Source: Persicimonas caeni (lineage in GTDB: Bacteria > Myxococcota_A > Bradymonadia > Bradymonadales > Bradymonadaceae). Taken from it: a stretch of DNA of 64,000 nt. Location: NCBI RefSeq assembly GCF_006517175.1, contig NZ_CP041186.1:2259001-2323000 (forward strand), read 5' to 3'. The notes under the pieces are model-generated. The model was not told the origin of the DNA, did no database searches, and was given only the letters and a program-made list of their open reading frames with translations. Shown here one piece after another: positions 19,970-30,796 of the stretch. The position numbers and the translations under genes are program-made. The stretch's first letter is position 1. Each line of letters begins with the position of its first letter.

Positions 19970-22900
19970 TCAATTGTCGATGACCGCCCAGCTAAGTGGG
20001 ATATGCTGACTCTCGAGCGCGTCGAGTTGCTGCTCGATAGCGTGCAACTCGCCGGTGTCGCCGGCGTCGAAGGTGTCGCTGCCGGTCTCCGACATCGCCC
20101 CCGAGCTCGACTGCGCGATGAGCGTGGGTTGCTTGGACTGTTGCTGGACTTTGCCGCCGGTGGCGCTGCCGGGGTTCGCCACGCAGCTCGCCCCCAGGGT
20201 GATCGTCAGGCCGCGCACGACCACCGGCTCGGTGAGGTTGGCAGTGTTCGACGGCTCGTAAGCCAGACGCGCCGAGGTGGTGCCGCCCACGCCGTTGGTG
20301 CCGCTGGGCAGGTCGGCGTCGGTCCACAGGCCCTTGGGTCCTTTGGAGCCGTCGCCTTCGAAGTCGAGCGCGTAGATGCGCGACCAACCGGCTTGGCAAC
20401 GATCGCTGGTCGGCTCGACGAAGCTGGTGAAGTACAGGCCTTTGTTGAAGACCACCGCCTCACTGGTCAGCTTCTCGATCTGGGCGTCCGTCTCGTCTTG
20501 GAACTCGTGGCTCCAAAGGTGGGTGCCTTCGGCCACGGCCTCGTAGTCGCCGTTATTCTCGACCGTCGAGATCTCCTCGCGCACCGCGATCATCATCTGC
20601 TTGGTACCGGTGCTGCTCAAATCACCGCGCTCGCCGAGTCCGTAGAAGACCAGCAGGTCGTTACCCACGTCGGTGGTGCCCAGCGCCAGCGCCGGCTTGT
20701 AGGCCGCCGGGCCGAAGATGGGCCGGTCGTTCTCGTCCATCTGCTTGTACTTGTCGATGTCGACGCGCGGGTCGAAGAACAGCTCGACCGACCAATCCTC
20801 GGGGTCGTCGTTCGAAAGGTCGATGCGATACAGACGCCCGGCGCCGTCGCCCACGAAGCCGCGGGTGGCCAGGCTGCCGGGCTTGGCGTTGTAGAGCGCC
20901 GGCGAGCCGGTGATCGGATGCTGGAAGCGCTTCTCGACCGGCGAGCCGCTCTCGTTGTCGATATACGACACGAAGCGTCGCAGCAGGGTGCCCGTCTGCA
21001 GGTCGACCACGTAGATGGCGCGGCCCACGCGCTGCTCGGCGTCACAGTCCGTGCCGAATTCACCGTACGCACCACCGCTGATCACGGCGACCGGGCGACG
21101 AAGGCGCGGGCGGGTGTCGGCGTTGGGGAAGGTCGCGTGCAGCGCGATGGTGCCGATGGCGGCCTTGCCGACACTGGCGCCCAAAAACGGCTGGTCCCAG
21201 AAGTACTCGTTGACGCCGTCGCTGTCTCGGTCGTCGCTGCGGTCGTCGTCACACTCGGCGATGAACCCGCCGCTTGTGCCGTCACGCAGGCTCGACTCGC
21301 TCGGGTAGACCAGCTCGTCGCGGCCGGCGTCCGACAGGGTCTTGACCTGGCCGCGCTCCCAGTTGGAGTCGAACTCCCACAGCGGAATCGGGTCCGGCGC
21401 CTCGATCTTGAGGCTGTTGGTCGACTCGACGAATTTGCCGCCCGGGCGGGTCACGTCGACGGCGAAGTAGCCGGCGCCGGCCTCCCCCAAGCCCTGCACG
21501 AGCACGGTGCGCCACTGGTCGGCAGGCTCGACGGTGCAGCTCGAGCCGGTGCATCGGCACGCCTGGCGGTTCAGGTTGTAGTCCTGCGAGCCGTGGCACA
21601 GACGCACGTCCTTGACGCTGGGGGTGCCGTCCATCAGGTAGGGCTGCTGGCCTTTGAAGAGGGCGAGCTTCTTGTGGAGCATCTGCGGGATATAGGCCCA
21701 CGCCTCGCGCTGCTCGGGCATCGAGCCGTTCGTGCCATCCTTCTTCATGATCTGGGTGTCGGCCGTCGCCGGATCTTCGTCGAGCTCACCCGAGTAGATG
21801 CCGTGGAGCAAACCGTCGGTGGTGGCCACGTAGATCATGCTGGGGCGATCGGCGAACTGCGCTTTGTAGGCGCGGTAGCTGTCGATAGGCAGGTCCAGAT
21901 TCGGCGGCTCGACGGCGACCGGCGACGAGTTGAGGATGGCGCCAAACGCCCGCCCCTCGCCGTTGGTGAGGTCGTACTCTTTGGCCTCCGCACGGCCGCG
22001 CACCTCGTGGATGAGCTGTTTGAGGTCTGTCTCGTCGAGAGCGTTGAAATAGTCGAGCAGCTCGATGTCCGGGTCGACGTCGGCGTTGAGGTTGGCGATG
22101 ACCTGCTCGAATTCATCGAATTCGAAGGGCACGCGCCCGGTGAGCAGCTGGTCGGGATCGAAGCCCAGGTAGGTGCTGTCTCCGTTGGAGTCGCGGAACT
22201 GGTCTTCGTCGCCCGACTCGAGGTCCATGCCGAACCAGAAGCGGTGGCGCTCGAAGTCGATGGAGCTGGCCGTGTCGAGGTTGCCGGCCAGACGTGTGTT
22301 GTAGTCGAACGAATCGTGGGTGGCGAACGAGGTGAAGATGCGTCGCCGGTCATTGGTGACCGTACCCGTGTCGTAGATGCCGTCGCTGGCGTCCGGATCG
22401 CCCACCGAGCCGGCCAGTTGGTTGATCTGGTCGTGGATGGTGGTCTCGGACTTGTCGATGGAGGCGCTGGCGGTGCACACGTTGTTCTGACGATACAGAA
22501 GACCGCGCCAGAAGATCTCGCCGTTGTCGACGCCCACACCCGAGAAGAAGCGGTACTGACCGCCGTAGGTGTTGTCGTCGTCGAGGCGGTTGACGAAGGT
22601 CGGGCGGGTGCGCGACTGCAGGCCACCGCCGACGATGTCGTTGAACAGAAGCTGCAGGGCGTCGGCAGTGTAGCGTACCAGGTTGACGTCGGGATCGTCG
22701 GTCGAAAGGATCAGCGCCGGGTAGCGGCACTTGACGGTGTCGCCGTCGGGCTTGATGTACTCGTAGGCCCCGCCGGTATTGTTCTCGCGCAGGTCCATAT
22801 ACTCACCCTGGCGCGCATCCAAGCAGGCGCGCACCGACGGGTCACAACTGCCCTGGGTGCCGTCGTACATCGTCTCGCCGTCCGGGACCCAATTCGACCC

Positions 22901-24658
22901 CAGGTAGTACTCGGCGCAGGTGCGGCCTTCGACGGCCATCGCGGCGAGCTTTTGAACCACGCGGTCCTCGAGCGTCTCGAGGTCGGCGTTGGGGTCACCG
23001 TCGTCGTCGACCTGGCCGACCTGGCCGACCACGTGCACGCGCGGGTTGTACTTGCAGGCATCTTCATACGAGGACGCCGTCGAATCCCACGAGCCGACCA
23101 GGTACGAGTCGGGATACGGCGGGCTGCTCGTGTAGCGCGGGTTGTTGACGCCGGTATGCTCGGTGTCGGTCATGAACGAGCGGATCGCCTTTTCGGTGTA
23201 GGTGTACGGATATTGTGCCGGGTCGTAGCCGAACGCCGAGCTCAGCGTGTTCGTGCCTACGTCGACACCACCGGGAAGCTCGGGCTCCGGGTTGCCGTCG
23301 GTGAGCATGATCACGTGCTTCGGACGGCAGTTTTTGTACGAGTCCTCGATGATCGGGCTGTCGTCGCTCAGCTTTCCCTTACGCCCGTGGGCGAAGTAGT
23401 GGTGGATGTCGTACATCGCTGCGGCCAGCGGCGTGGCGCGCGCGATGGGCTGGCGGCCGAGGGTGTATTTGTCGACGAACTTGTCGAGATCGTCGGAGAA
23501 CTGCACGCCCAGCGCATCGTTGAGCGCACCGCTGAGGAGCCCCTCATCGTCGGCCTTCTTGGGCTCGAGCTTCATGTCCTCGTCGTCGCGCAAGTATCCG
23601 GCGTCGATCAAGGCGTATTGCACGTAGCTCGAGATCTGGCCGGCGATGCTCGTCGACATCTCCAGGGACTTGGGCCCGATCATCTGAAAGACGCCCAAGT
23701 TGTAGTTGAACTTGTCTGGCTCGCCGGCCTTGTCGGGCTCACCCTTGCCTTCGGTGACCCCGGCGAAGGTGTCGTCCTCCTTCATCGGATCCTGGAGGTG
23801 GTCGGCGCCCGACGAGCCCTTCCAATCCTTCCAAGCGTCATCCTCGCGGTCCTTGTAGCCGTCGAACATCGCCACGGCGAAGATGGCGTTACCGGCGACC
23901 GTGTCCATCAGGCCGTTGGGCACCTGGCCGTCGAAGACCTCCTGGAAGTGCGGGCGCGGCTCGGAGTAGTCGGGGAACTTGTCGAATTTGTTGTAGTCGC
24001 TCGACGCCAGATCGTCGCACAGGTCGCCGGTCTGAGCCGTGGCGTTGCGCTGGCGCGGCACCAACCAGCAGCCCGGCGCGTCGACGTTGGGGTTGAGGTC
24101 GCCGATCGAGCGGGTGTCGCCGTCGTAGCGAAGCACCATCTCTCCGGACAGAATCTCCTTGAGGCTGACGTGGCGCGGCTGGCTTTTGTTCTGCAGACGG
24201 GGGCCGACGCCGGTGGCATCACCGCGCATCGCCTCGATGCGGTTGTTGATGGTCGCGTCCGAGTAGTTGTCGCTCCAATCCGAACCAGTCTGCCAACCGG
24301 GACGGTCGTAGTCGGAGCAGTCGGCCTTCCAGACGTAGCAGGGCCCGTAGCGCTCGGTGTCGAGCAGCGACTTGCCGGCTTTCCACTCCGGGGCGCCGTC
24401 GTTGTTGTTGGGGTACTGCTCGTCGCCCTCGTCGGTCCATTCCATGCTCGCCGAGGTGTCCATCAAGATCATGATGAACGGCTTTTGCGACGCTCCCGTC
24501 GACTGGGCGTAGGCGGTGGTGCTCACGGTGCCGAAAAGCGCCGTCAGCGCGGCCACCGTCAGGGCGCGACGTCCAAATGTTGCGAACGCGGTAGGGCTGA
24601 GCATGGGGATCCTCACACGATTGCCGGAGCTATCAAAAATCCATCGTCGGTTGGCCAT
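19970..24658 (-). CDS. pilY1: PilY1/PilC-type type IV pilus tip adhesin
   Basis: 1562 aa from ATG 24658. A signal-like segment (FGRRALTVAALTALFG, ending TTAYAQ) is followed by a VWA-like region beginning MILMDTSASMEW with a DxSxS MIDAS, and later HVIMLTDGNPEPELPG. The C-terminal half (from about FGAILNSSPVAVEPP through YVATTDGLLHGIYSG and YVVDLQTGTLLR) matches the PilY1 beta-propeller, with Asp-rich loops (DDDRSDDRDSDG) that could bind calcium. PilY1 proteins sit at the pilus tip and control retraction and adhesion. Gene order after fimT, pilV, pilW and pilX supports the call. Start choice is complicated by repeated in-frame starts at 24659-24718. Confidence 0.88.
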   Translation of the reverse strand: MANRRWIFDSSGNRVRIPMLSPTAFATFGRRALTVAALTALFGTVSTTAYAQSTGASQKPFIMILMDTSASMEWTDEGDEQYPNNNDGAPEWKAGKSLLDTERYGPCYVWKADCSDYDRPGWQTGSDWSDNYSDATINNRIEAMRGDATGVGPRLQNKSQPRHVSLKEILSGEMVLRYDGDTRSIGDLNPNVDAPGCWLVPRQRNATAQTGDLCDDLASSDYNKFDKFPDYSEPRPHFQEVFDGQVPNGLMDTVAGNAIFAVAMFDGYKDREDDAWKDWKGSSGADHLQDPMKEDDTFAGVTEGKGEPDKAGEPDKFNYNLGVFQMIGPKSLEMSTSIAGQISSYVQYALIDAGYLRDDEDMKLEPKKADDEGLLSGALNDALGVQFSDDLDKFVDKYTLGRQPIARATPLAAAMYDIHHYFAHGRKGKLSDDSPIIEDSYKNCRPKHVIMLTDGNPEPELPGGVDVGTNTLSSAFGYDPAQYPYTYTEKAIRSFMTDTEHTGVNNPRYTSSPPYPDSYLVGSWDSTASSYEDACKYNPRVHVVGQVGQVDDDGDPNADLETLEDRVVQKLAAMAVEGRTCAEYYLGSNWVPDGETMYDGTQGSCDPSVRACLDARQGEYMDLRENNTGGAYEYIKPDGDTVKCRYPALILSTDDPDVNLVRYTADALQLLFNDIVGGGLQSRTRPTFVNRLDDDNTYGGQYRFFSGVGVDNGEIFWRGLLYRQNNVCTASASIDKSETTIHDQINQLAGSVGDPDASDGIYDTGTVTNDRRRIFTSFATHDSFDYNTRLAGNLDTASSIDFERHRFWFGMDLESGDEDQFRDSNGDSTYLGFDPDQLLTGRVPFEFDEFEQVIANLNADVDPDIELLDYFNALDETDLKQLIHEVRGRAEAKEYDLTNGEGRAFGAILNSSPVAVEPPNLDLPIDSYRAYKAQFADRPSMIYVATTDGLLHGIYSGELDEDPATADTQIMKKDGTNGSMPEQREAWAYIPQMLHKKLALFKGQQPYLMDGTPSVKDVRLCHGSQDYNLNRQACRCTGSSCTVEPADQWRTVLVQGLGEAGAGYFAVDVTRPGGKFVESTNSLKIEAPDPIPLWEFDSNWERGQVKTLSDAGRDELVYPSESSLRDGTSGGFIAECDDDRSDDRDSDGVNEYFWDQPFLGASVGKAAIGTIALHATFPNADTRPRLRRPVAVISGGAYGEFGTDCDAEQRVGRAIYVVDLQTGTLLRRFVSYIDNESGSPVEKRFQHPITGSPALYNAKPGSLATRGFVGDGAGRLYRIDLSNDDPEDWSVELFFDPRVDIDKYKQMDENDRPIFGPAAYKPALALGTTDVGNDLLVFYGLGERGDLSSTGTKQMMIAVREEISTVENNGDYEAVAEGTHLWSHEFQDETDAQIEKLTSEAVVFNKGLYFTSFVEPTSDRCQAGWSRIYALDFEGDGSKGPKGLWTDADLPSGTNGVGGTTSARLAYEPSNTANLTEPVVVRGLTITLGASCVANPGSATGGKVQQQSKQPTLIAQSSSGAMSETGSDTFDAGDTGELHAIEQQLDALESQHIPLSWAVIDN

Positions 24659-24718
24659 CTTGTCCTGCTCCATCTGATCGGGCTCCATCTTATTGGACTC
24701 CATCTTATTGAGCTCCAC
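24659..24718 (-). repeat. Four 15-bp tandem SD-start modules ahead of pilY1
   Basis: Four 15-bp units (start codons GTG 24718, ATG 24703, ATG 24688, ATG 24673) lead into ATG 24658. Each begins RTGGAG, and each GGAG lies 9 bases before the next unit's ATG, so every unit is both a start codon and a ribosome-binding site for the next. All starts are in the pilY1 frame. The first unit overlaps the pilX stop. Confidence 0.75.
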
Positions 24719-25361
24719 ATTCGATGGGACCGATATACGTTTCGATCGCGGTGCGCTTGTCGGCGACCATGCCCGAGCCGCTCCAGTCGTGCGAGGGCTC
24801 GCCGACCAGCCCGCGGCTGACCACGGTGATCTTCTTGAAGCAGTAATTCTCGCCGTAACCCGCTGCCGGCGGCCCGTCCATCGGGTCGCGCAGCACGACC
24901 TCGAACTGCGAGCTCGACTCGCGGGCTTCGAACGACTTCTTGGAGCCGTTGGTCAGCAGGCCGGTCTCGCCGGTGATCGCGGTGACGTTCGGAAAGACCT
25001 TGTCGCCGCTGCCCGCCTTCTGCTTCAGGTGCAGATAGGCGCCGCGACGCGCCTCGGCTTGGCGCGCATTGGCGCTGGACAACTGCGACAGGTTGGTCAC
25101 CTGCGGGCTCTGCATCATCGCCCAAAAGCCGCTGGCGTCTTTGCCGGCCATGTAAGCGGTGTAGCCGCTGGCCGCTTCGGCCAGGCCGGTGGCCTGGGCG
25201 CGCACGCGGTATGCCCCCGACTGCTGCAGGCTGGCGCGCGTGTCACGCATCGCCAGCATGCCCAGACCGGTGAGCACCAGGAGCACGAGCATCGTCAAGA
25301 TCAGCGCGCTGCCCTGCTGCTGGGCGAGCCACTTTCGAGTCGTTGTGCGGTTCGTATTCAT
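24705..25361 (-). CDS. pilX: PilX-like type IV pilus assembly protein
   Basis: 218 aa. The N-terminus (QQQGSALILTMLVLLVLTGLGML) is the hydrophobic start typical of PilX N-terminal domains, with Gly-Ser before the helix and no Phe+1/Glu+5 prepilin signature, as is usual for PilX. RDTRASLQQSGAYRVRAQATGLAEAA continues the pattern. The C-terminus contains two cysteines (YCFKK and IECGAQ). It is a minor pilin-like component helping to assemble the fibre. Stop lies 14 bp inside the repeated pilY1 start region; pilW ends 15 bp upstream. Confidence 0.8.
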   Translation of the reverse strand: MNTNRTTTRKWLAQQQGSALILTMLVLLVLTGLGMLAMRDTRASLQQSGAYRVRAQATGLAEAASGYTAYMAGKDASGFWAMMQSPQVTNLSQLSSANARQAEARRGAYLHLKQKAGSGDKVFPNVTAITGETGLLTNGSKKSFEARESSSQFEVVLRDPMDGPPAAGYGENYCFKKITVVSRGLVGEPSHDWSGSGMVADKRTAIETYIGPIECGAQ

Positions 25362-25375
25362 CGGAAACTCGGCTC

Positions 25376-26830
25376 CTAGTAGACGACGTTGCGCATCGAG
25401 AAGGTCGCCAGCTCGACATCACTCTGGACGGTCACCACGCGAGCGGCTCCCTCGGCGTCGGGGTTGACGTCGAAGTAGCGCATCGACATCTCCTTGTTGA
25501 CCGTACCCGTCGAGTCCATGAAGAAGGCTTTGATATTGTCCGGGGCGTCTTTGCGCTCGTACTTGGTGCGCACCGACAGGCGAATGTGGGCCATGCGCGC
25601 CTCGCCGAATTCGCCGGTGTTCGGGTCCATGCACGCGCCTCCGCCCGGGTTGGCCCACTCGGTCAGCCAGGCCGCACCGGCCAACTCGCCCTGAGCGTTG
25701 CCGGCACAGTCGAACCAGACCTGGAAGTCGACCACGCGGTCGGCAATGACGACCTTGTCGCCGGTGGCGAGGCCCTCCAGCTTGGTCGTGGTGATGGCGT
25801 TGGGGTTGGTCGCCAACTCGCTGGCGATGCCGTCGCCGTTGAGTCGCTCGCGCACCAGGCGGAAGTTGAGCGGGTCACGCGGGTCACTCTCGACATGGTA
25901 CCAGTACACGTCGATGAGCGCGGCGTCGTAGCCGATATCCTGATTGTCCTCGGTCTGACGCTGCAGCCCCACGGCGTGGTCGGCGCCGGCGCTGTCGTCG
26001 GCCTCGTTGTTACGCACCAACAGGTTGGTGGTGAATTCGATGGGAATCCCACCGAGCGACGCCGCCGGGATGGCCGTATCCGAGTAGGTCGGCACCGGAT
26101 CGGCGGCGATGCCGCTGACCTGGCTGTTGCCCTCACGGTCCATCACGCGGATGAGCCGGTCGGACAGGTCGTTGGTCAGCACCGCCGAGGCCTCGCTCAA
26201 TTTGAGAGCGTCACCGCCGGCGTCGGCCGAGTCATCGGGCACGATGCCCTGCGGCAGGCCGGGGTCGGTGTGAAACGGATTGTTGACCAGCAGCTTGAAC
26301 ATCCCGCGCTCGTTGGCCGGGATGGTCGCCCCTTTGACCCGCTCGTTGCCGGAGTTGAACGTCAACGAGGTGATCTCGAAGCTCTGCGGAAAGTCGATGG
26401 CGCCCATGACGATGAACCCGTCGTACCCCACCGCCGGCACCGAGCCTGACACCGCGGAGTCGGTGTGAGCCGCGTCCAAGCCATGGGTGGTCAGCAGAGT
26501 GTGGTCGTTCTGCCAGCCGTTGTAGCTGGCCACCCCGGCCAGGCGCACCGAGCTGGAGCCGGCGTTGTTCACCGACGGATACCAGCGGTCGCCCTGGGAG
26601 TCCGGGCTGCCGAACGAGCCGGCGTTGCGCACCTCGGCCGACAGCCGCTCCATGGCAAACCGAGTACGGTCGAGGGTGTCGGCCAAGCTATCCGCCTCTT
26701 TGAGCGTGTCGGAGGTCGAGGCGAAGAGCGAGAAAATCACCCCGACGATCAACCCCAGCAGGGTCACCGCCACCATCAACTCGACCAGCGTAAAGCCACG
26801 GCGCAACAATTTGGGCAAACGAATCTTCAT
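25376..26830 (-). CDS. pilW: PilW-like minor pilin
   Basis: 484 aa from ATG 26830, longer than typical PilW (about 350 aa). The class III/type IV prepilin signal RRGFTLVELMVAVTLLGLIVG is complete, with cleavage expected between Gly and Phe and Glu at position 5 of the mature protein. The rest is a long, Asp-rich globular region of beta-strand character with one CMDPNTGEF loop. It lies between pilV (8 bp upstream) and pilX in the canonical minor-pilin order. Confidence 0.83.
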   Translation of the reverse strand: MKIRLPKLLRRGFTLVELMVAVTLLGLIVGVIFSLFASTSDTLKEADSLADTLDRTRFAMERLSAEVRNAGSFGSPDSQGDRWYPSVNNAGSSSVRLAGVASYNGWQNDHTLLTTHGLDAAHTDSAVSGSVPAVGYDGFIVMGAIDFPQSFEITSLTFNSGNERVKGATIPANERGMFKLLVNNPFHTDPGLPQGIVPDDSADAGGDALKLSEASAVLTNDLSDRLIRVMDREGNSQVSGIAADPVPTYSDTAIPAASLGGIPIEFTTNLLVRNNEADDSAGADHAVGLQRQTEDNQDIGYDAALIDVYWYHVESDPRDPLNFRLVRERLNGDGIASELATNPNAITTTKLEGLATGDKVVIADRVVDFQVWFDCAGNAQGELAGAAWLTEWANPGGGACMDPNTGEFGEARMAHIRLSVRTKYERKDAPDNIKAFFMDSTGTVNKEMSMRYFDVNPDAEGAARVVTVQSDVELATFSMRNVVY

Positions 26831-26838
26831 AGGGAGCC

Positions 26839-27498
26839 TCACAGGTAACCGCGCCGGTAAATATGCGAGCCGAAAAACTGGACCTTGTAGCCTTCCATCT
26901 GCAGCGAATTGTTGTCCAGCGGGTCCATCGACGCATCGAGTTTGGCGGCGGCGTACTGCGGACACTGCGTGGCCGGCGGCGCATTATTCGAAGCCGGGAA
27001 GGCCTTGTTCGCCGACGGAAAGACCACCGCGATCTGGACGGTGAAGACGTCACCCGCCTCCAAGTATCCGCCGCGGGCATAAGCGCAGTAGCGCGTGGTG
27101 CCGGTGGTGGTCAGCCGGGGGTCGACCGGGTTGGCAAATAGCCGCGTCCACGAAGTCCATCCACCGCCGTCGACCGCCGCTAGCACCGGCGAGGAGATGA
27201 ATGCCGTGCCGTTGAAGGCGGGGGTGTCCACGTCGTTGGCGATCGTACCGCCGCGCCACTGGCCCGACTCGGCGCGCATCACGTCGAAGATGCGCTTCGC
27301 GATATCAGACGCATTGGAGTTGTCGCGCGAGATCATGGCGCTTCCCATCGAGCTGAACTGCATCTGCAGGATGGCCATGATGCCGATCGCCAGAATCAGC
27401 ATCGCAATCAACAGCTCGACCAGAGTAAAGCCGGCGCGTGTGCGACGGCCCGTCGAGCGGTTGGGAGACTGGGTTTGGACTCGTGTCGTTTTCATCAC
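26839..27498 (-). CDS. pilV: PilV-like minor pilin
   Basis: 219 aa. The prepilin motif RAGFTLVELLIAMLILAIGIMAIL gives a Gly-Phe cleavage site and Glu5, and the IAMLILAIGIMAIL-QM helix is characteristic of PilV. Start codons at 27498 and 27495 are adjacent; the gene overlaps the fimT stop by 4 bp. Role: minor pilin priming type IV pilus assembly, processed by the prepilin peptidase, which is not in this window. Confidence 0.83.
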   Translation of the reverse strand: MMKTTRVQTQSPNRSTGRRTRAGFTLVELLIAMLILAIGIMAILQMQFSSMGSAMISRDNSNASDIAKRIFDVMRAESGQWRGGTIANDVDTPAFNGTAFISSPVLAAVDGGGWTSWTRLFANPVDPRLTTTGTTRYCAYARGGYLEAGDVFTVQIAVVFPSANKAFPASNNAPPATQCPQYAAAKLDASMDPLDNNSLQMEGYKVQFFGSHIYRRGYL

Positions 27499-28259
27499 TG
27501 GATGACCGAGACGGCGCCGTTGTAGGGAACGTGAATGCTATAAAAGTTGGTCAGGTCGCGCCCATCCTTTTGGGCTTGGCGTTTGGTCGCGTCCTCGGTG
27601 GCCTCGTTCACGCACTTGTCGAGCGCCGGGGCGGTACCTCCGAGCGGGTTGGACGTCAGGCCGGTGTCGCCCGGCTCGCCCAGTCGCACGTAGATGCGCG
27701 TGTTGATCGCGTCACAATCGGACTCGAAGGGGGTGCCCGCCTGGCTCAGCACACGGCCGCTGGGCGAGAAGCACAGCGTCAGCGTATTGCCCGCCGGAGC
27801 AGGCGTGGCGTCGAAGCCGCTGATCAGCATGTCGGGATGCTTGTCGGCGAAGTCGAGCTCGGCGACCTGCACCTTGGTCAGCGCGTTGGTCTGCGTGCAG
27901 CTCAACGCGAAGCAGTCGGTGTTGTGCGGGTCGTAGTTGGCGTTGGTGGGGTCGCACTCGGCGGCCCCGCTGTTGGTGGTGCGGTAGAGCACCACCTCGC
28001 CCGCATCTCCACTGCCCTCTTTGGTCACTTCCACCAGCAGCGCTTCGCCGCGGCTCATCGCCTGGTTGCGCGCAGCGCGAATGATATTGGCCACGTCGCG
28101 CGCGGCCGATTGGCCTTTGGCGCGGCGCATATAGGTCATCACACTCGGAGCCAGAAAGCCGGCCAAGATGGCAATGATCGACACCGCGATCATCAACTCG
28201 GTCAGCGTAAAGCCCCGCGGGTCACGCCAAATTTGGTTGTTGGGCAGTCTTGATTTCAT
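27495..28259 (-). CDS. fimT: FimT/GspH-like pseudopilin
   Basis: 254 aa from ATG 28259. The prepilin signal PRGFTLTELMIAVSIIAILAGF is followed by LAPSVMTYMRRAKGQSAARDVANIIRAARNQAMSRGEAL, which fits the GspH/FimT N-terminal helix region. First gene of the six-gene pilus operon. FimT-type minor pilins can bind DNA in competent species; whether this one does is not visible. An upstream in-frame start (28316) would add 19 residues and is less likely. Confidence 0.83.
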   Translation of the reverse strand: MKSRLPNNQIWRDPRGFTLTELMIAVSIIAILAGFLAPSVMTYMRRAKGQSAARDVANIIRAARNQAMSRGEALLVEVTKEGSGDAGEVVLYRTTNSGAAECDPTNANYDPHNTDCFALSCTQTNALTKVQVAELDFADKHPDMLISGFDATPAPAGNTLTLCFSPSGRVLSQAGTPFESDCDAINTRIYVRLGEPGDTGLTSNPLGGTAPALDKCVNEATEDATKRQAQKDGRDLTNFYSIHVPYNGAVSVIQ

Positions 28260-28389
28260 CGCAATCGACTCGCGCTCCGCAGATAGAGTTTCAGTCTGAC
28301 CATATTTTAGCAGCAAGAATCACACCAACCGCACAGCCAGTAAGATCACGTCAGCATCGGCACTGAGTCATGGTACCCCGTTTGATGCA

Positions 28390-28408
28390 CTATGAAAACT
28401 TTTCATAG
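28390..28408. promoter_or_regulatory. Perfect 19-bp palindrome between divergent pilus and barrel/cytochrome operons
   Basis: CTATGAAAACTTTTCATAG is a 9-1-9 perfect inverted repeat in the 285-bp region between fimT and the barrel gene. Its AT-rich content contrasts with the surroundings. It looks like an operator for a dimeric regulator. No regulator gene is adjacent. An ATG lying in it (28392) opens the barrel frame but is probably not the start. Confidence 0.5.
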
Positions 28409-28544
28409 TCATGAAAAAGGTTCGCACTGCAGCCGACTACTGCGGTCGTTGGGTCGTGGGGCTTGGGGGCTTGGAGGGTTGGGTGGGTGTGGAGTAAAAC
28501 GGGGGGTGAGCGGAGAATGGTGTTCGTTTGGTGGAGATCGGTGC

Positions 28545-30014
28545 GTGTCGTCTTTTTGTGGCTCGATTGCAGTCCGACGCTTGTTGGTGGGCTGTGCGGT
28601 GCTTGCCTGGGGGCTGTTGGGTCCCGGCGAGGCGGGTGTGTCGAGTGCGCAGGCGGCGAATTACCGGGTTCGGTCGATCACGATTGGGCGTGCGACCCAG
28701 TATTTTCGTTCCGATCAGACGATCAGCGCGCCGCGTATCTTTACGCAGGGGTTGAGCGTCTGGGGCTATGACCTGCTCGATGACCGCACCGGCTCGCTCA
28801 ACCTGCACGTGTCCATCCGGTACAACACCGACTTTTCACTGACGCGCGTCGAGCGCGACAACCCCTACTTTGGCGACCAGTGGAACGAGTTGAGCCTCGA
28901 TCTGGCTTACCTCGACTGGCGGCCCTACGACTCCTTGCAGGTTCGCTTCGGCCGCCAGTGGAGCCAGGGCGCGCTGGGCGTGCGTGATTTCGACGGCGCG
29001 CTGGCCGCCTGGCGGCCCAGGGTGGGGCCAAACACTCACGCGCGCCTGGAGGTCTACGGCGGCCACGATATTCAGACCGCCTTCGGCGAGTTCGACGCTG
29101 CCCAGTGGGATGTGCAGGGACTGCCGCCCGACGACTCCATCCTGACCGACCGACTCGACGGCTTCCACCTGCTCGGCGGCGCCAGCGGCGGCATGCAGTG
29201 GGGCGGCGACGCGAGCTTCGAGCTGAGCTACCGGCGCCGCTGGGCCGTCGGGGTCGACTCGCCGGTCGAGGGCGCCGACACCGTCGTCGGAAGTGAGCGC
29301 TTCGGCGCGGCCGCCAGCGGCTCGTTCCACCCGCGCCTGGCGGTGTCCGCCTACGGCTCGATCCACTCGATGCTCGAAGACGTCGACCGCGCCGGAGCGC
29401 AACTCAGCTGGCAGATTCCGGGCCTCGAGGGCATCGCCACCGGCGGCGTGGAGCATCGCCACCCATGGTTCGACAGCTCGAGCATCTTCAACCTCTTCGG
29501 CCCTCGGGCCTACCAGAGCGCGTTCGGCATCTATCAATTCGAAGTGGAGTCGCTTCGCACCGAGTTCGGGGTGCGCGGCTGGGGCAGGATCTATCACGGC
29601 GACGACGACGCGGTCGCCCTGGGGGTCGACGCGCAGGACGAGCGCGCGGTGGGAGGAGCTGTGAGCCAACTGAGCCGCTTGAAATGGGGCGAAAAGCCGA
29701 TCAACTGGCACTCGCTGGTGAGCTACCAGACGAGCATCGACCGGGGCACCGACCAGCTCTTGGCAGACAGCCGAGTGCGCATGCCGCTGCTCGCCGACGA
29801 CCTGTACGTCTCGGCGCGCGGCCTCGTTTTGGCCGCGATGACCGACAACCCCCGCTTCGACGACGAAGGCTATGCGCTGACCGGGGTGTTGGGGGTCGAC
29901 CTGCCGATCTCGACGCTCGGCACGCTCAGCGCCGCGCTGGAGACGACCGGCGGCAACTTTTATCCGACGCAGACCAGCGTGTACGCGACCTTTGCAGTGG
30001 AGCACTGGCCTTGA
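28545..30014 (+). CDS. Outer-membrane beta-barrel candidate linked to multiheme cytochrome
   Basis: 489 aa from GTG 28545, which has GGAG about 8 bp upstream and gives a sensible signal peptide (RRLLVGCAVLAWGLLG, ending SSAQA). Starting at ATG 28392 would add an odd Gly/Cys-rich leader. The mature protein shows alternating amphipathic beta-strand stretches ending in aromatic residues (LNLHVSIRYNTDFSL, LSLDLAYLDWRPYDSLQVRFGRQW, SVYATFAVEHWP), typical of a barrel. No named family recognised. It overlaps the cytochrome gene by 4 bp (TTGA), so both are probably made together, as in porin-cytochrome conduits. Confidence 0.65.
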   Translation: MSSFCGSIAVRRLLVGCAVLAWGLLGPGEAGVSSAQAANYRVRSITIGRATQYFRSDQTISAPRIFTQGLSVWGYDLLDDRTGSLNLHVSIRYNTDFSLTRVERDNPYFGDQWNELSLDLAYLDWRPYDSLQVRFGRQWSQGALGVRDFDGALAAWRPRVGPNTHARLEVYGGHDIQTAFGEFDAAQWDVQGLPPDDSILTDRLDGFHLLGGASGGMQWGGDASFELSYRRRWAVGVDSPVEGADTVVGSERFGAAASGSFHPRLAVSAYGSIHSMLEDVDRAGAQLSWQIPGLEGIATGGVEHRHPWFDSSSIFNLFGPRAYQSAFGIYQFEVESLRTEFGVRGWGRIYHGDDDAVALGVDAQDERAVGGAVSQLSRLKWGEKPINWHSLVSYQTSIDRGTDQLLADSRVRMPLLADDLYVSARGLVLAAMTDNPRFDDEGYALTGVLGVDLPISTLGTLSAALETTGGNFYPTQTSVYATFAVEHWP

Positions 30015-30733
30015 GACGACGACGCCGACACATCAAAAAGCGGCGCCGAGCGTGGCTCCGAGGGGGCGTGCTGGCTCTCGTGCTCACCGCCCTCTTCGCT
30101 GGCTGCCAGACGCGCCAGAGCACGGTGCCGGCCGAGTTGCGCGAGGGTGAGTCGCCCGACTATCGCTCGCTGCTCGCCGACGAGCCGGCCAGGCTGCGCC
30201 CGCGCAACCACGAGGTCGGCTGGCTCGAGCGCCACGGCGTGGCCGCCCGCGCCATGTCGAGTGACTGCATGAGTTGCCACCAAGAGGAAGACTGCGCGTC
30301 GTGCCACACCGAGAATCTGGCGAAGCCACTGACGGTCCACCCACCTAATTTCGAGACGATCCACGCCATCGACGCCCACCTCGACCAGGACAACTGCACC
30401 GACTGCCACAAGGTGGAGACGTTCTGCGCGTCGTGCCACATCCGCACGCGGGTCAGCGCCATCGAGCCCAACGACCCGCCGACGCGCGTGGAGTTCCACC
30501 CACCCGGCTGGCTCAACGCCTCGTCGCCGAACAACCACGGCGTGGCCGCCCGGCGCAATATCACCGACTGCGCGAGCTGCCACCAAGAACGCGATTGCGT
30601 GACCTGTCACCAGGGCATCAATCCGCACCCGCCGCAGTTTCGCTTGAATTGTGGGAGATGGTTGGAAGCAGATCCGCGAGCATGTGTGACGTGTCATGCG
30701 GATCTGAGCGCCTTGAAGAGGCGCTGCCTCTAA
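30011..30733 (+). CDS. Seven-heme c-type cytochrome lipoprotein
   Basis: 240 aa if translation starts at TTG 30011, which overlaps the barrel stop (TTGA). A very Arg-rich n-region and hydrophobic segment end in the lipobox LFAGC (Cys32). Seven CxxCH heme c motifs lie at about residues 86, 95, 129, 139, 187, 196 and 225, with extra His residues that can serve as distal ligands. Residues 66-100 and 175-200 repeat each other (HGVAAR then DCxSCHQExDC), indicating internal duplication. The small spacing resembles c3/c7-type cytochromes. It should carry electrons at the periplasmic or outer-membrane face. Confidence 0.82.
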   Translation: MRRRRRHIKKRRRAWLRGGVLALVLTALFAGCQTRQSTVPAELREGESPDYRSLLADEPARLRPRNHEVGWLERHGVAARAMSSDCMSCHQEEDCASCHTENLAKPLTVHPPNFETIHAIDAHLDQDNCTDCHKVETFCASCHIRTRVSAIEPNDPPTRVEFHPPGWLNASSPNNHGVAARRNITDCASCHQERDCVTCHQGINPHPPQFRLNCGRWLEADPRACVTCHADLSALKRRCL

Positions 30734-30796
30734 CATCGACGCAAATAACACCTAACATCGACGCAAATAACACCTAACATCGACGCAAATAACACC
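30731..30796 (+). repeat. Three perfect 22-bp tandem repeats
   Basis: TAACATCGACGCAAATAACACC occurs three times head to tail (30731, 30753, 30775). The first copy begins with the TAA stop of the cytochrome gene. No spacer variation and only three units, so not a CRISPR array. Confidence 0.9.

Follow-up and report, generated by a model that had tools for sequence, protein, structure and literature searches.

The window analysed here, a stretch of 64,000 nucleotides from Persicimonas caeni (contig NZ_CP041186.1, positions 2,259,001 to 2,323,000), contains a gene for an outer-membrane β-barrel that runs into a gene for a multiheme lipoprotein cytochrome c (Table 1). A preliminary description of the locus had named a signal-bearing barrel overlapping a lipoprotein with seven CxxCH motifs; both reading frames, the overlap, the lipobox and all seven motifs were found again. 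The longest ORF for the barrel covers 28392-30014 on the + strand and encodes 540 amino acids. However, the probable start is GTG 28545, since it is preceded by a Shine–Dalgarno-like GGAG (28535-28538) and opens a normal signal peptide, whereas ATG 28392 sits inside a palindrome and was set aside for that reason. The stop of the barrel gene and the start of the cytochrome gene share the four bases TTGA, which points to coupled translation. A sigma-70 promoter search at the locus gave no match, and a terminator search gave one terminator-like match, located inside a gene. Right where the cytochrome gene ends (30730-30796), a 22-bp unit, CTAACATCGACGCAAATAACAC, is present in three identical repeats.

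Table 1. Features at the barrel–cytochrome locus, in window coordinates.
Feature	Position	Strand	Basis or remark
Divergent type IV minor pilin operon	19970..28259	-	Adjoins the pair in class Bradymonadia
1582-aa PilY1-like protein	19970-24718	-	Size and place only; no Pfam match
PilX_N-like gene	24705-25361	-	PilX_N match just below cut-off
Three N-methylation pilins	25376-28259	-	Three N_methyl matches
Perfect palindrome of 21 bp, ACTATGAAAACTTTTCATAGT; a candidate operator, with the barrel gene on one side and the divergent pilins on the other	28389..28409		Conserved in relatives
Outer-membrane β-barrel gene	28545..30014	+	489 aa from GTG 28545; probable start, from GGAG and signal peptide
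Barrel signal peptide, predicted cut SSAQA/ANY	28545..28655	+	Sequence inspection; aligned relatives start at the same place
Mature barrel of 22 predicted strands, without a plug	28656..30011	+	Structure model
Heptaheme lipoprotein cytochrome c	30011..30733	+	TTG start within TTGA, overlapping the barrel stop
Lipoprotein signal peptide, lipobox FAG/C (Cys32)	30011..30106	+	Sequence
Stretch with seven CxxCH heme-binding motifs	30266..30697	+	Motif search

The palindrome had been described as a perfect one of 19 bp and as a possible operator; it is indeed perfect, and its length is 21 bp. Seven perfect palindromes with arms of at least nine bases occur in the window, compared with a mean of 1.05 in shuffled sequences, so that the palindrome alone means little. 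A search of 21 genomes of the family for CTATGAA-N5-TTCATAG, allowing at most one mismatch, returned 14 places (two for a control pattern), and seven of these lie upstream of the pair, in five genera (G000, G003, G006, G013, G016, G018, and G019). Versions with two mismatches are present at L086, L087, and L095, and none was found upstream of the pair in G008. The palindrome is thus a conserved site; its being kept in place in five genera lends support to the operator reading, and it probably is one. It need not serve the conduit proposed below, and its target may be the pilin operon. Five of the 14 sites precede a sigma-factor-like gene (G013, G016, G018, G019, and G020), which from its appearance we take to be that of the primary sigma factor. 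There, in two genera, the palindrome lies between MerR-like and primary-sigma-factor-like genes (G013:C1:556593, L208; G016:C1:575345, L210; G018:C34:10720, L209; G019:C6:9592, L213; and G020:C309:6035, L212). Its occurrence at the pair and at these MerR/sigma loci suggests a small regulon in common. In the window's own genome, the stretches examined beside the two closest sigma-factor genes contain no palindrome, with up to three mismatches allowed.

The seven CxxCH motifs of the cytochrome start at 30266, 30293, 30395, 30425, 30569, 30596, and 30683. Chance was rejected as their origin by 5000 shuffles of the protein, which gave a mean of 0.07 motifs and a maximum of 2. Across 14 diverse cytochromes, all seven motifs and exactly seven further histidines (67, 75, 110, 118, 163, 176, and 206) are invariant, a pattern that would supply each heme with bis-histidine ligation. 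Against Pfam and NCBIfam, the window protein gave sub-threshold matches only; TIGR03508 matched four of the 14 cytochromes weakly (best 1e-4) and did not match the window protein. Modelled alone, the cytochrome gave a poor structure (pLDDT 70.8, pTM 0.31), unfit as a query for a fold search.

The mature barrel, in contrast, was modelled with AlphaFold2 from 56 sequences as a closed 22-strand barrel (mean pLDDT 89.3, pTM 0.83). It has no plug domain, with strand 1 opening at residue 2, and would leave a wide opening through the outer membrane. This is not a non-porin fold, the outcome that would have spoken against the preliminary description. Foldseek and VIA-align place the model among outer-membrane barrels, with TonB-dependent receptor barrels as best matches (Z 15-19); the top VIA-align match has a Z of 19.0 and an rmsd of 3.9 over 385 aligned residues with 10% identity. 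These matches show a common fold and make no statement on function, and the lack of a plug led us to reject a TonB-dependent receptor. No curated Pfam or NCBIfam family could be assigned to the window barrel. When the 56 barrels of alignment A3 were compared with the curated models, weak and scattered matches resulted, the commonest being a generic barrel domain in four of the 56, and none to an MtrB-type model. The lack of any such match, together with 22 rather than 26 strands, also led to the rejection of MtrB; its absence from the Foldseek and VIA-align lists excludes nothing. PDB sequence searches with the barrel alone and the cytochrome alone returned nothing useful, and one with the barrel profile gave nothing better than stretches of OmpA with an E of at least 0.24.

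The two genes are almost always adjacent. In 95 genomes, comprising that of the window and 94 relatives, the cytochrome was detected in 61 and the barrel, with a single-sequence query, in 20. A scan of named genomes yielded 79 cytochrome loci, mostly in Myxococcota (Lujinxingia, Bradymonadaceae, Sandaracinaceae, Polyangiaceae, Labilithrix, and Sorangium among them), with two in Gemmatimonadota and one in Calditrichia. A homologous barrel lies directly upstream of the cytochrome in 70 of the 71 testable loci. With an iterated profile, for which a reversed-sequence control gave no match, the upstream ORF fell into one barrel family in 68 of the 69 loci with a candidate ORF, and in the window. 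Ten loci initially lacked a candidate ORF: two of them (L114 and L156) do have a barrel, and the other eight begin about 400 bases or less from the first heme motif. The sole exception is L160 from Calditrichia, where an ORF of barrel size gives no match to the profile.

The same emerged from profile searches of 377 genomes of the phylum, which found the barrel in 152 and the cytochrome in 187. We tabulated 129 barrels and 134 cytochromes, mainly the better-scoring part of these matches; 120 of the 129 barrels are followed directly by the cytochrome on the same strand. The remaining nine lie at contig ends: six start no more than about 330 bases from base 1, and three leave 3, 9, and 470 bases. 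Among the 14 tabulated cytochromes without a tabulated barrel, those of G119 and G334 have one after all and the rest are near contig ends; in G055 and G362, about 1 kb of contig is left, most of which the remainder of a long cytochrome gene would take up. The pair is widespread in the phylum, and the pairing on which the preliminary description had staked its reading holds in both samples.

The relatives differ from the window protein in heme number. Most have 13 CxxCH motifs, a few have 12, and those of Gemmatimonadota 16, whereas seven were counted in 11 of the 79 loci (L085, L086, L089-L091, L093-L095, L097, L138, and L141). A 13-heme relative consists of an N-terminal hexaheme arm followed by a heptaheme part like the window's. 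The motifs of the window protein are spaced 9,34,10,48,9,29, and the last seven motifs of the relatives 9, 33-44, 10, 43-57, 9, 29-45 (L157, L158, and L160, with other layouts, excluded), so the spacing is mostly preserved while the preceding part varies. A heptaheme part of constant spacing with an N-terminal part that comes and goes is as expected if the former is fitted into the barrel. The six N-terminal hemes are akin to cytochrome c7, QrcA, and ActA (PDB 8k9e, 6lod, and 6btm, with E down to 2e-15, and a QrcA model).

In a quick tree of 66 barrels, for which the cytochrome was not used, seven-heme and long forms are separated by five changes, and the starred branches force at least four. 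The seven-heme form arose several times. The tree does not separate gain from loss; loss of the hexaheme arm is the probable course, because 13 hemes is the more frequent and more widely distributed state. The armless cytochrome usually, though not always, goes with a lipid anchor: a lipobox pattern is present in the window and in seven of the ten seven-heme loci whose N-terminus is complete, versus five of 68 other loci, some of them cut. The seven-heme members L090, L097, and L062 have no lipobox, and L085 has a near-box. We also searched for the arm elsewhere in 14 genomes, ten with the seven-heme and four with the 13-heme form. Nine seven-heme genomes of family f1 contain strong matches (E 1e-16 to 1e-22) that are ActA-like by similarity. 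As the four 13-heme genomes carry such a match too, these proteins are no substitute for the missing arm. Weaker matches near E 1e-4 and 11 matches in G025 were also obtained. The window's own genome has two ActA-like genes (G000:C1:935615, L200; G000:C1:1808156, L201), in clusters that from gene order and size are presumably those of alternative complex III with terminal oxidase genes.

In class Bradymonadia, a type IV minor pilin operon usually lies beside the pair in divergent orientation; in the window, we take the largest protein of this operon to be PilY1-like. At least two prepilin motifs were found by the pair in 11 of the 79 loci (L084-L087, L089-L091, L093, L095, L097, and L121), which include ten of the 14 loci from L084 to L097 (contig ends cut the remaining four); two such motifs occur by the pair in none of the other 67. 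At L072 pilins are divergent from the pair too, in G005 (L064) they lie downstream instead, and in the stretch of G008 examined (L062) none was found, the pair being present all the same.

Other multiheme genes are scarce around the pair. The window has no other ORF with at least three CxxCH motifs, and of 107 loci, some of which cover a short stretch, 100 have no other multiheme gene by the pair. Six of the 107 have further ORFs with 3 to 32 motifs near the pair (L157, L158, L160, L079, L080, and L172), and in a seventh, L075, such an ORF lies 11 kb away. The six belong to Gemmatimonadota, Calditrichia, and some Myxococcota. At L157 (6940-11814) and L158 (2329-5965), both Gemmatimonadota, a pair with a 16-CxxCH cytochrome stands beside ORFs with 8 to 32 motifs, and at L172 (G334:C233:7000-14000) the pair is part of a five-gene run in which four genes have CxxCH motifs (7, 12, 5, and 5).

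The barrel model and the near-constant pairing support the porin–cytochrome reading offered by the preliminary description, and we consider it likely that the two proteins form a two-gene conduit for electrons through the outer membrane. Its lipid anchor would fix the heptaheme lipoprotein to the inner leaflet, and the protein would thread the barrel with its seven bis-histidine hemes in a chain, along which electrons could cross between the periplasm and the cell surface. The hexaheme arm of the relatives would extend into the periplasm; the armless window protein would depend on a soluble or inner-membrane partner there. As to direction, our guess slightly favours outward over inward flow, with menaquinol as the donor and an acceptor outside the cell at low oxygen. 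The additional multi-CxxCH ORFs at six of the 107 loci, which resemble known extracellular electron transfer clusters, speak for such a conduit. The poor cytochrome model, the want of a further multiheme gene in the window and in 100 of 107 loci, and the three seven-heme members without a lipobox count against it, and seven hemes may be too few when the published two-gene systems have 12-14. According to the account in PMC7188933, Bradymonadales are facultatively anaerobic predators able to use nitrate, among them P. caeni YN101, itself a facultatively anaerobic predator, and Bradymonas sediminis FA350. That we saw no report of metal respiration in the order in the literature consulted also counts against a conduit.

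Other assignments of the two genes have to account for the same observations. The barrel could channel a metal or small molecule whose redox state a periplasmic cytochrome alters, the electrons never reaching the surface; such reductive uptake or detoxification would agree with siderophore and vitamin receptors as the nearest structural neighbours, with a lipid anchor that alone would hold the cytochrome at the inner leaflet, and with the absence of an outside cytochrome gene near the pair. We nevertheless hold it to be unlikely, because the plug-free model is not a TonB-dependent receptor, an unfilled open 22-strand hole would leak, and some relatives adjoin giant multiheme proteins. The divergent pilin genes, in all ten testable loci of L084-L097 and at L121 and L072, and the palindrome conserved between them and the pair in many Bradymonadia loci, would suit a device serving the tip or assembly of the type IV pilus (through redox of a pilin or PilY1, or contact sensing), its conduit look being secondary. 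The pair is kept where pilins are absent, elsewhere among the 79 loci and in the G008 stretch, which makes this explanation very unlikely. That the two genes lie side by side through descent alone, each with a job of its own, is scarcely credible given an adjacency preserved over families, classes, and into Gemmatimonadota at about 16-20% barrel identity. A bolder version of the conduit, which we regard as quite unlikely, is a minimal wire, arrived at repeatedly through loss of the hexaheme arm, in which the seven-heme lipoprotein alone spans the barrel and in Bradymonadia is tied to type IV pilus contact, so that the predator would swap electrons with gripped prey or surfaces.

Should the two-gene conduit hold, outer-membrane conduits would be far commoner in Myxococcota, predators included, than the Anaeromyxobacter case implies, and would belong to families not captured by Pfam and NCBIfam. 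The recurrent contrast of 13 with seven hemes would offer a natural comparison of the heme-chain length needed to cross the outer membrane. In the PMC literature searched, we recognised no paper on the pair in Bradymonadales or on the barrel families.

Comparison with known conduits places the pair close to Pcc systems, whose porins are given 18-22 membrane motifs and whose cytochromes are given 5-14 hemes in the account of Shi et al. (2014, PMC4245776). It shares a porin-like barrel adjoining a multiheme c-type cytochrome gene, and both its 22 strands and its seven CxxCH motifs fall within those ranges, as reported for the Geobacter OmbB-OmaB-OmcB type. Compared by description only, it differs from the latter in having no OmcB-like outside cytochrome and in its lipoprotein cytochrome. 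With MtrAB, PioAB, and MtoAB it has in common the idea of a barrel and a multiheme wire, but the barrel has 22 rather than 26 strands and no curated MtrB-type match, and there are seven hemes rather than ten. The hexaheme arm at the N-terminus of the 13-heme relatives is related to QrcA and to ActA from alternative complex III; the window protein lacks this arm. A Pcc outer-membrane cytochrome gene, 12-14 hemes, an MtrA decaheme, a 26-strand barrel, and a TonB-receptor plug are all absent. The preliminary description was right that the barrel is not a recognised MtrB or OmbB, as no useful curated match was found; the pair is less of a new version than it had supposed, two-gene clusters having been described in 2014 (PMC4245776). 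These clusters, as presented there, occur in Anaeromyxobacter spp. and Candidatus Kuenenia stuttgartiensis and have 12-14-heme cytochromes, and Shi et al. suggest that the extra hemes offset the absent outer-membrane cytochrome, a suggestion that a seven-heme pair puts to the test. Like the window pair, they are described as two adjacent genes, for a porin-like barrel and one multiheme cytochrome, with no outer-membrane cytochrome gene, and Anaeromyxobacter belongs to the same phylum. The window cytochrome, compared by description only, differs in having seven hemes instead of 12-14 and in being a lipoprotein, and the 13-heme relatives, by the same kind of comparison, lie within the range of 12-14. 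These relatives would thus appear to be of the Anaeromyxobacter and Kuenenia kind, and the window pair is best read as a reduced variant of those two-gene clusters.
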